Part shown: positions 1-32,974 of the stretch, in pieces
Layout: every line of letters starts with the position of its first letter
Numbering within the stretch: the first letter of the stretch is position 1
IMG/VR virus record: IMGVR_UViG_3300048672_000692
Coordinates: 1-32,974 of that record
Direction: 5' to 3' (one strand)
Source: a virus
Length of the DNA stretch: 32,974 bases
Translations under genes and position numbers: made by a program
Notes under the pieces: model-generated
The model's database searches: none
What the model saw: the letters and a program-made list of their open reading frames with translations, nothing else
What the model was told of the DNA's origin: nothing

Positions 1-421
1 TAGGAATATGCTGCAGAGCCACAGATTCGTTCATGAAGAAACCGGACTTTTCCAGACCGCCGTGTACCAGATCAACAACCATCGGCAGAACTTTGACGAT
101 CTACTGCTCGTGGTCTAGTTTCACATGATGTGATGGGTTTGGCTGTGGAGTCTTAGAACCGTCCCAGAAGTCGATAGAAACCAGACCTTGTGAACCAATT
201 TTGCCAACAGTTTTCCAGTTCATACGAACGGATTTGGCACCAGCACCATCCATAATGAAGAATCTAATGCCGACGTATTTCGTGCCGCCAGAAGGTGTAA
301 AAACTTCAGGTGTTGGATATGGGAATACTTTGTTCCCAAGTTTTGAGCGCAGATACTTCGTGATCAGAAGTTGTGCGGAAGTGAAATCTTTTGAGCGGAT
401 TGCTTCGGTAAGTAGGTTCAT
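1..421 (-). CDS. Unknown phage protein, 3' end beyond window, one in-frame TAG
   Basis: Starts at ATG 419-421 with a distant GGAG Shine-Dalgarno and runs off the left edge. A TAG at 101-103 (codon 107) would end it in the standard code, but the same frame stays open for another 33 codons to the window edge with protein-like composition (IVKVLPMVVDLVHGG...). I read the TAG as an amino acid. I do not recognise the family. The first 106 residues are mixed alpha/beta-like with several aromatic patches (GIRFFIMDG, VSIDFWDG) and no signal peptide. It lies downstream of the terminator at 485-508, so it probably belongs to another transcription unit. Confidence 0.7.
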
Positions 422-484
422 GTTTGAAATAGCTCCATTTAATATATTGAGACCGGTGAAGCTATTTAATCAAACTCCGCTTAC

Positions 485-508
485 TAAAAAGCCCTCCGAA
501 GAGGGCAA
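485..508 (-). terminator. Rho-independent terminator after ugd
   Basis: On the minus strand GCCCTC-TTCG-GAGGGC forms a perfect 6-bp stem with a stable TTCG tetraloop, followed by TTTTT. It begins a few bases after the TAA of the UDP-glucose dehydrogenase gene. The core CCTC-TTCG-GAGG recurs at 21684-21704. Confidence 0.9.
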
Positions 509-511
509 TTA

Positions 512-1348
512 TTAGATTTTCACATCGTATGAAACACCTTGCTCTTTTTCACGATCATCAAGTTCTGTACCAGACCTATAGATCATATTCTGCCTAGCTG
601 CTTCTTCAAGAACTGTAAGAGGTGTATTTTGTTCCTGTGCAAATCTAACCATGGCAGAGCTATCTTTTGGGAAGCAAGCGCCTGAAAATCCACGTTTGCC
701 GTCGTTACCCGGGACCATCATATGTGAAGACCCCACACGGACATCCTCACCAATCGCTCTACGGATCACATCATAATTCGCACCGGTAGTATTGCACAGA
801 TCGTAAAACTGGTTCCAGAACAGAACCTTAGTTGACAGAAATGTGTTAATACCATACTTTGTGAAGGCAGCTTCCTGTGCAGTCATGTAGTGTACTGGGG
901 CAGGTTTACAAATTGAATATCGTTCATAGAAGGAGTGCAATTTGCTTGTGTTCTCTGGTGTGCCACCAAATACATGCAAGATTGGATTTTCAAAGTCCCA
1001 TAGAGCATTACGCTCAGTCAGGAACTCTGGGTTGTATACAAAATTCTTGTACTTCTTAGCAAGTTCATCTACCATAGAAGGAATCAAAGTAGACTTAAGA
1101 ACAATAATTGCTTCTTTGTGTTTAGCCAATTCTGGCATGACATCTTGGACAATACTTGCATTGATAACACCATCGGTTCCCATGGGAGTAGGAACTGCAA
1201 CAAAGATTAGATCATATTTCTTATCACGAAAATCTTTTACTGATGTCCCCAATTTTGGATCTGCAACATCAACACGATTCTTCTGAAAACCATGACAAAC
1301 CGCAGCGCCCACGAAACCTTTTCCAACAACCAAAACATCAATAGACAT
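512..1348 (-). CDS. ugd: Short UDP-glucose 6-dehydrogenase-like enzyme
   Basis: Nucleotide-sugar dehydrogenase, 278 aa, ending in TAA. The Rossmann motif GKGFVG is at residues 9-14, VAVPTPMG near 50-57, and the catalytic-cysteine motif FSGACFPKD has Cys at 225. Family members usually have 390-450 residues; this one lacks most of the C-terminal UDP-binding domain, a shortening also known from phage versions. It should oxidise UDP-glucose to UDP-glucuronate using NAD. The start is ATG 1348 with AGAGGT upstream. The next gene upstream encodes a UDP-glucuronate decarboxylase, the next pathway step, so UDP-glucose is the likely substrate, although a GDP-mannose or other UDP-hexose dehydrogenase is not excluded. 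Confidence 0.85.
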   Translation of the reverse strand: MSIDVLVVGKGFVGAAVCHGFQKNRVDVADPKLGTSVKDFRDKKYDLIFVAVPTPMGTDGVINASIVQDVMPELAKHKEAIIVLKSTLIPSMVDELAKKYKNFVYNPEFLTERNALWDFENPILHVFGGTPENTSKLHSFYERYSICKPAPVHYMTAQEAAFTKYGINTFLSTKVLFWNQFYDLCNTTGANYDVIRRAIGEDVRVGSSHMMVPGNDGKRGFSGACFPKDSSAMVRFAQEQNTPLTVLEEAARQNMIYRSGTELDDREKEQGVSYDVKI

Positions 1349-1389
1349 AGTAACCTCTTAAAATAGTAATAACTCAGTATGTAGTAAGA

Positions 1390-1414
1390 ATTATATCACG
1401 GATTCAGTTTGAAG
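1390..1414 (-). promoter_or_regulatory. Promoter for ugd, variant of the repeated phage promoter
   Basis: Extended -10 GTGATATAAT (TATAAT at 1390-1395). At the position of the conserved CTTTTATT box there is a weaker match, CTTCAAAC (1407-1414). The TGA stop of the decarboxylase gene lies inside the extended -10. Confidence 0.6.
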
Positions 1415-31988: not shown

Positions 31989-32020
31989 GATTTAGTCCTG
32001 ATTGTGTTGTCAATGGATGT

Positions 32021-32045
32021 ATTATATCACAGAAAGCAATAAAAG
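32021..32045 (-). promoter_or_regulatory. Repeated phage promoter
   Basis: CTTTTATT (32038-32045), 11-nt spacer, TATAAT (32021-32026) preceded by TGTGA. The TAA of the upstream 52-aa gene is the last part of the extended -10 (32022-32024), so the gene ends inside the promoter. Confidence 0.85.
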
Positions 32046-32180
32046 CATTGCTTCTCGAAAATCATCCTCGTCTTTTGCATAGTCTTCATGAAGAAACTCA
32101 GAACTAGGTAGATCTGGCCAAGTTATCACAACTTTATCTAGATCTACCCAGCCCAAGATATTAGTCTTTGGTTCCGTCAT
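32022..32180 (-). CDS. Small acidic unknown protein ending inside a promoter
   Basis: 52 aa from ATG 32180, overlapping the metallophosphoesterase end by 20 bp, to TAA 32022. MTEPKTNILGWVDLDKVVIT, WPDLPSSEFLHEDYAKDEDD, then LLLLSVI. The last residues LLLLSVI are encoded by the promoter box and -10, which shows how tightly the genome is packed. Function unknown. Confidence 0.65.
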   Translation of the reverse strand: MTEPKTNILGWVDLDKVVITWPDLPSSEFLHEDYAKDEDDFREAMLLLLSVI

Positions 32181-32766
32181 GGTGGCCATGCCTTTGGATT
32201 TCTCGGCGACTCATTTCGGAACAGATGTCATCCATATCATGGACTTTCATGAAGTTACCATCAAGACCCACATCGAGCTGCCGGACATTCATCCCTTGCA
32301 GATTCCGATGATCGTGATGAGAATGGCAATGCCCATGCAGGTTGATAGAACCATGATGTGAACGATCCCAAGTCAGGAATGGAAAGTGGTTCACCACAAT
32401 CTTGTACTTCTTTTCTTCGAACTTGTGATCGAATTCCAGGTAATCGCCTTCCCATACAACACCCATCAACTTCTTCTGTGAATGAAATGGTGTTGAATCG
32501 CGGTACTTCTTGTCATGGTTGCCCCAGACCAGTTTCTTGAAACCATTCATGCGCTTCAGAAACTCAGTAGTCTGGTCATGGCTACCAAAGCAAATATCAC
32601 CTGCGATGATCAAAGTGTCATCATCAGTAACAACCTTGTTGATGTTAGTAATGATGCTTTCATTCATCTCATCTACTGACTGGTAATGCCCACGAGACCA
32701 TGGGGAGTACTGGATGATGTTTTTGTGGCAGAAGTGGAGGTCACTAGTGATGTATGTTTTGCTCAT
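32161..32766 (-). CDS. Calcineurin-like metallophosphoesterase
   Basis: 201 aa, TAA stop. Metal-binding motifs in order: DLHFCH (9-14), AGDICFG (55-61), WGNHDK (81-86), NHFPF (126-130) and HGHCHSHH (144-151). This is the small single-domain phosphoesterase form found in many phages. Substrate unknown; near the RNA ligase and P-loop kinase, a 2',3'-cyclic phosphate or nucleotide substrate is possible. His-rich C-terminus. Confidence 0.85.
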   Translation of the reverse strand: MSKTYITSDLHFCHKNIIQYSPWSRGHYQSVDEMNESIITNINKVVTDDDTLIIAGDICFGSHDQTTEFLKRMNGFKKLVWGNHDKKYRDSTPFHSQKKLMGVVWEGDYLEFDHKFEEKKYKIVVNHFPFLTWDRSHHGSINLHGHCHSHHDHRNLQGMNVRQLDVGLDGNFMKVHDMDDICSEMSRREIQRHGHHDGTKD

Positions 32767-32772
32767 TTTATT

Positions 32773-32973
32773 TTACCAAGAAATTTTAAAACCGTAGTTC
32801 GTATGCATTGGTCCGCTATTATCGAAATCGTCAGCAAGACCACGTGGAATATATGGCGCACCATCTTTACTGATAGATGCATTATATCCCAATTCGATGA
32901 GCTTAGCCAAGACTGCTTTATTAAGAGGGGTTATTTTTGTATCCAAATGATCAAATGGACCCAATGAGCTAAT
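32773..32973 (-). CDS. Partial unknown gene, 5' end beyond window
   Basis: Frame open to the right edge. The visible part ends TAA 32773. A TTG at 32962-32964 could start it, but the frame continues upstream (ATT AGC TCA TTG) to the edge, so the true start may lie outside. PLNKAVLAKLIELGYNASIS then APYIPRGLADDFD. Function unknown. Confidence 0.65.
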   Translation of the reverse strand: MSSLGPFDHLDTKITPLNKAVLAKLIELGYNASISKDGAPYIPRGLADDFDNSGPMHTNYGFKISW

Positions 32974-32974
32974 G

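Follow-up and report, generated by a model that had tools for sequence, protein, structure and literature searches.

Whether TAG is a stop codon or a sense codon, and in the latter case for which amino acid, is the question raised by a viral metagenome contig, the IMG/VR record IMGVR_UViG_3300048672_000692. The whole record (32,974 bases, classed as linear and available without reads) was analysed here and is referred to as the window. A first-pass annotation, made from the letters alone, had proposed that TAG is reassigned to an amino acid across the window, on the basis of 21 in-frame TAGs in twelve genes. Our analyses indicate that the window is very probably part of a T4-like myophage belonging to a clade in which UAG serves as a sense codon for serine (Ser).

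The window phage and its relatives

A scan with the window DNA ligase identified IMGVR_UViG_3300035661_000023 (97,345 bp; ligase 70% identical), hereafter the first sister, and the window is mostly collinear with its bases 63.1-91.9 kb at a nucleotide identity of ~66-87%. A second sister, 3300048672_000522 (60,534 bp), has a baseplate protein 95% identical. In addition, a terminase scan recovered 3300035661_000043 (79,755 bp), and the first sister comes from that metagenome too. The ends of these two contigs of metagenome 3300035661 overlap exactly, over 127 bp in one pair and over 11 bp in the second pair, whose junction is spanned by the second sister; the two contigs probably constitute one genome of ~177 kb. 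The window phage is a third member of this clade. Judged by its T4-type capsid, baseplate and replication genes, the phage group is a T4-like myophage: the sister matches PHROGs for baseplate wedge, tail tube and tube cap, the window encodes T4 RNase H, DNA ligase and RNA ligase, and the isolates nearest to the sister major capsid protein are Pelagibacter phage HTVC008M (61%) and Methylophilales phage Melnitz (59%). Two scans of GTDB genomes aimed at the host found no relative.

In-frame TAGs and their conservation

All 21 positions hold TAG in the sense claimed, seen as CTA on the plus strand for the minus-strand genes and read directly at 6151-6904 in the single plus-strand gene. Twenty of them lie in credible genes; the case at 22473 is weak, because it falls at the start of a small gene with 34% identity to the sister and an uncertain start codon. 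Reading through TAG gives protein families as proposed, with six rebuilt open reading frames (ORFs) matching Pfam. In the dCMP deaminase (23437..23895, minus strand; PF00383, 1.1e-20; phrog_174, 5e-47), the TAG at 23599 separates HAELN from the SPCVSC cysteines, and the sister protein (70% identity) has Ser (TCT) at this site, with 66/98 identical residues ahead of the TAG and 37/49 past it. The TAG at 11666 in the GH19 endolysin (11585..12196, minus strand; PF00182, 2.3e-11; phrog_181 endolysin, 1.2e-68) stands directly ahead of KRVNGG and is common to the sister. The PAAR and SleB proteins also become readable through TAG (PF05488 and PF07486), whereas the endonuclease ORF named along with them has PHROG matches only.

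Among the 20 good TAGs of the window, 15 could be aligned within the clade; 22473, which faces arginine in a poor alignment, was left out. The relative also has TAG at eight of the 15 sites (101, 5412, 5560, 5857, 11666, 12920, 29906 and 30342) and Ser at five (6151, 6154, 23599, 29591 and 30112), while alanine (22055) and lysine (30318) are each found once, so that five of the seven non-TAG residues are Ser. The alignments run on beyond the TAGs, and identity to the sister past the TAG is 183/188 for the ClpP-like protein and 117/137 for SleB. The TAG sites common to an independently assembled sister are a strong argument against sequencing error. Meanwhile, the structural genes of the first sister are packed with in-frame TAG, and hundreds of such codons occur across the three sister contigs. 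TAG density reaches 8-12.6 per 1000 codons in structural regions versus ~2 in the window-like accessory region.

The use of stop codons points in the same direction. As had been claimed, no conserved window gene ends in TAG (TGA 25, TAA 16, TAG 0; n = 41), and over the four clade contigs the count is 0 of 204 conserved genes (41 in the window and 82, 59 and 22 in the sister contigs). Standard-code homologues, taken as the baseline, use TAG as stop in 26/272 cases (9.6%), against which the chance of zero TAG ends is P = 0.016 for the window and P ~ 1e-9 for the clade. When TAG was treated as sense, ORF coverage rose from 0.79 to 0.92 in the first sister (0.68 to 0.88 with a 90-aa limit), from 0.67 to 0.956 in the second sister and from 0.61 to 0.785 in the remaining sister contig. 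The gain in coding density, suggested as a check in the first-pass annotation, is thus decisive in the sister contigs, but the window itself fails to single out TAG: its coverage is 0.824 with TGA not a stop, more than the 0.762 with TAG not a stop. Since coverage is not specific to TAG in the window, homology is the proper test there. Taken together, these data support TAG as a sense codon across the phage group.

The amino acid encoded by TAG

The residue had been left open between genetic code 15, in which TAG is glutamine (Gln), and Ser; codon exchanges and homologue columns both favour Ser and disfavour Gln. In the exchange test, we compared orthologous codons in conserved-gene pairs at sites with TAG in just one of the two phages. 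The 156 non-TAG cells, which are not fully independent because they come from three phages and some sites are viewed from more than one genome, comprise Ser 80, Gln 23, alanine 14, threonine 6, glutamate 6, proline 5 and a tail of others. Compared with the exchange profile of each amino acid, this pattern fits Ser best, 197 nats over alanine and 208 over Gln, and it is alike in both directions. Most Ser cells hold TCT or TCA, codons that lie two mutations away from TAG, and therefore reflect the residue. In contrast, the Gln cells are 20 CAG and 3 CAA although CAA is the commoner codon overall, an excess better explained by one C-to-T change than by synonymy. An all-frame codon comparison was misleading, as spurious frames gave exchanges with lysine (K), glutamine (Q), tryptophan (W) and leucine (L); conserved-gene pairs were used instead.

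In the second test, 41 ORFs compared with standard-code homologues yielded 140 TAG columns, and bootstraps were taken over genes. Ser ranked first, with threonine 18.6 nats and Gln 31.3 nats behind, and was recovered in 997 of 1000 bootstraps. As a control, equally large random samples of known residues were drawn, and all of them were classed correctly. According to both tests, the residue inserted at UAG in this clade is almost certainly serine. To our knowledge, UAG as Ser is absent from all code tables of the National Center for Biotechnology Information (NCBI).

A serine-type CUA tRNA in the sister genome

The other half of the first-sister genome (G021) carries 13 tRNA genes at 49.5-57.6 kb, as detected by ARAGORN, and the last of the array (57520-57609, 90 nt) has the anticodon CUA. 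Infernal alignment and folding give it acceptor, D, anticodon, long variable and T arms and an encoded CCA, which places it in class II. Five full-length relatives were found among 50,697 phage records, four of them annotated as tRNA-Ser and one without annotation; the sole Escherichia coli match is a tRNA-Ser, which is also the nearest class among the compared tRNAs. By structure and relatives, the tRNA is serine-type, and its charging with serine is predicted. A laboratory parallel is E. coli supD, an amber suppressor in which a tRNA-Ser with the anticodon CUA inserts Ser at UAG. Both are tRNA-Ser whose anticodon became CUA; supD, however, is a host mutation that suppresses nonsense mutants, whereas the present tRNA would be encoded by the phage and serve a genome that uses TAG for Ser.

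Three other elements of the sister array may be mentioned. ARAGORN reported an ochre suppressor, tRNA-Stop(tta), at G021:50036 (L137:1537-1612), for which Infernal gives the loop CCUUUAA and the anticodon UUU (lysine), with an unusual C33; because of this anticodon, and because TAA behaves as a stop, it was not taken as a suppressor. A permuted two-piece transfer-messenger RNA (tmRNA) lies at L137:4758-5023 (Rfam RF04321, 94.7 bits; tag peptide ANADTFLMAA), and a 188-nt group I intron (RF00028, 66 bits) seems to split a tRNA-Met (CAT) at L137:6134-6397.

A model for UAG decoding and its alternatives

In the model that we favour, the infecting phage would produce tRNA-Ser(CUA), which the host seryl-tRNA synthetase (SerRS) would charge. 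For recognition, SerRS relies on the long variable arm and does not read the anticodon. The charged tRNA would then compete with host release factor 1 (RF1) at UAG, yielding full-length proteins, above all late ones, while TAA and TGA would stay stops. The clade contigs contain neither an RF-1/RF-2 family protein, and hence no altered release factor of the kind looked for after the first-pass annotation, nor a class II aminoacyl-tRNA synthetase core (PF00587 search), so that charging must rest on the host.

Several points weigh against this model. The window's own seven homologue columns alone do not type the residue, and the 18 strictly conserved homologue columns at TAG hold mixed residues. 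The second-sister columns alone give Gln in 17% of bootstraps, and the ten columns of the third contig favour Gln or glutamate. The window holds no tRNA, and ARAGORN (also run with introns) and Infernal found no suppressor tRNA there, in the first sister contig or in the second sister; the expected CUA tRNA is present in the other half of the sister genome but not in the window fragment. As the window is a fragment that lacks tRNAs, its suppressor has to be inferred, and collinearity and the common TAG positions suggest that its own genome probably carries the same CUA tRNA. Charging of the tRNA and decoding of UAG are likewise steps that we infer from sequence. Finally, as no release factor was found in the clade, UAG may still cause termination in part.

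The last point leads to the alternative that survives best, namely that UAG is ambiguous, with some ribosomes inserting Ser and others terminating through active host RF1, which could make TAG a switch that sets the timing or dosage of late genes. The lack of a phage release factor in the clade is consistent with this, as is the higher TAG density in structural regions, which resembles the late-gene bias of other recoded phages (PMC7886860). However, TAG also occurs in replication genes (nine in the sister gp46-like gene) and at essential internal sites, and no truncated products are predicted to be functional. We consider such mixed decoding unlikely, although by no means negligible, and it is compatible with Ser as the inserted residue.

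Reading TAG as Gln (genetic code 15), the way crAss-like phages and further recoded gut phages do, would agree with the reported meaning of TAG in recoded phages (PMC9523058, PMC11210395), and Gln is the second commonest residue opposite TAG in the clade (23/156). But the 80 Ser cells exceed it by far, Ser leads by 208 nats in the exchanges and by 31 nats in the standard-code homologues, and the codons, 20 CAG to 3 CAA for Gln against mostly TCT and TCA for Ser, fit a C-to-T change in the former case. In addition, the only CUA tRNA belongs to class II and has a long variable arm, which sets it apart from tRNA-Gln. A Gln meaning is therefore very improbable. Sequencing or assembly errors, or decayed genes, might be suspected in a metagenome contig without reads, but this is hardly credible given that a sister assembled independently has eight of the TAGs at identical codons, that identity stays high downstream, and that three further contigs hold hundreds of in-frame TAGs and zero TAG stops. 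Pyrrolysine, suggested by the label 'Pyl' that ARAGORN gives to any CUA anticodon, is extremely improbable, since the tRNA is a canonical cloverleaf with a long variable arm closest to tRNA-Ser, the PF00587 search of the clade contigs was negative, and TAG exchanges with Ser and is scattered over unrelated proteins.

TAG-containing genes and neighbouring features

The remaining TAG-containing genes are on the minus strand, except the endonuclease-like ORF. At the contig end, a cut gene (2..421) has a TAG at 101, and is 86% identical to the sister over 140 aa with TAG at the same codon. The Clp-type, head maturation protease-like gene (4845..5552; PF00574, 1e-29) has its TAG near the N-terminus (5412), also present in the sister at 96% identity; the probable start is a later ATG (MTKKMTE). 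The SleB-like cell wall hydrolase (SleB/Hydrolase_2; 5440..5949; PF07486, 2.6e-26) shares both TAGs, 5857 and 5560, with the sister (81% identity), and the PhoH-like ATPase (12230..13012; PF02562, 7.6e-39) shares the TAG at 12920 (76%). In the MazG-like nucleotide pyrophosphohydrolase (21710..22192; phrog_671, 5.2e-23), TAG 22055 is opposite alanine (GCT) in the sister (84%). The small gene of the weak case spans 22269..22661. A conserved gene with no function assigned (29231..29995; TAGs 29906 and 29591) is 53% identical to a sister gene with seven TAGs, the two columns being TAG and Ser. Next to it are a small conserved gene (29953..30138), whose TAG at 30112 corresponds to Ser (TCA) in the sister (68%), and the PAAR-motif protein (30138..30407; PF05488, 2.9e-10), in which TAGs 30342 and 30318 face TAG and lysine, respectively (82%).

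The homing-endonuclease-like ORF on the plus strand (5989..6984, 331 codons) holds seven TAGs (6151, 6154, 6349, 6481, 6667, 6817 and 6904), of which 6151 and 6154 are Ser codons in the second-sister homologue. It matches phrog_37840 (1.6e-10) and the homing endonuclease phrog_314 (8e-4), and no Pfam match was found. A repeat of ~88 bp (5921-6009) lies across its start; two copies in the second sister (49132-49220 and 52457-52542) are 84-88% identical, and the repeat is perhaps a mobile endonuclease border. An intein-like stretch, together with a homing-endonuclease-like ORF holding eight TAGs, apparently splits the second-sister terminase gene (L118:5938-8882), and the first-sister terminase region (sisB 10078-12844) looks similarly split.

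A repeated non-coding cassette occupies window positions 21378-21715 and is 94-98% conserved, more than most genes. Its copies are at 37955-38202 and 79552-79911 of the first sister (sis, L055-L059 joined), 57368-57592 of the second (sis2) and sisB 523-793. The 53-bp core is bounded by the inverted repeats GTAAAAAC / GTTTTTAC, and is inverted relative to the flanks in a sister copy (79755-79807), which could make it an invertible promoter or regulatory switch. On the minus strand, a UDP-glucose/GDP-mannose dehydrogenase gene (512-1348) adjoins one for an NAD-dependent sugar epimerase/dehydratase (1396-2376), suggesting sugar-nucleotide metabolism.

Relation to known recoding and wider occurrence

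Recoding of stop codons in phages is already established, mainly as TAG to Gln, and the Ser variant in T4-like myophages is new as far as we found: our literature search, with Ivanova 2014 and Borges 2022 outside its scope, gave no report of TAG as Ser in phages. In crAss-like phages, TAG to Gln has been shown by peptides (PMC9523058), and it is assumed by tools (PMC11210395). The code 15 phages (PMC9523058, PMC7886860, PMC10607447, PMC11210395) resemble the present clade in reading TAG as sense, mostly in late genes, in keeping TAA and TGA as stops, and in that many carry a phage-encoded CUA suppressor tRNA. They differ in the amino acid (Gln rather than Ser) and in lineage (crAss-like and other gut phages rather than T4-like), and some of them encode RF2, which was not found in the clade contigs. 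Gut phages with recoded genomes also carry amber suppressor tRNAs beside theta ribozymes (PMC10879173), whereas no ribozyme family was reported around the sister CUA tRNA; the 180 suppressor tRNAs surveyed in that study have the predicted isotypes Gln (69.4%), tryptophan (19.4%), isoleucine (10.0%) and tyrosine (1.1%), with no Ser. Melnitz is one of the aquatic phages with reported two-piece tmRNAs (PMC9004378), and its permuted tmRNA is like that of the sister genome; TAG recoding goes unmentioned in the portions of that report consulted.

We also scanned IMG/VR for the pattern of serine-type D arms and CTCTAAA loops, and at least 12 of the 29 contigs obtained have class II CUA tRNAs (the sister and at least 11 others). 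Three of them, G023, G027 and G030 (L139, L148 and L154), combine such tRNAs with in-frame TAG in conserved genes, and no kinship of these to the present clade was detected. Their TAG exchanges over all pairs are led by Ser (16) and alanine (15), which offers a lead towards a possible separate TAG-to-Ser group. On balance, we lean towards the view that UAG as Ser, through a phage tRNA-Ser(CUA), is genome-wide in the T4-like clade and has arisen more than once.

Since annotation tools offer code 15, the proteomes of this clade would carry an incorrect residue at each TAG. Which tRNA gains a CUA anticodon determines the recoded amino acid, and tRNA-Ser is an easy route because SerRS ignores the anticodon and one base change makes CGA into CUA. 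The clade, in which accessory genes carry few TAGs and structural genes many, is well suited to tracing the spread of recoding within a genome.

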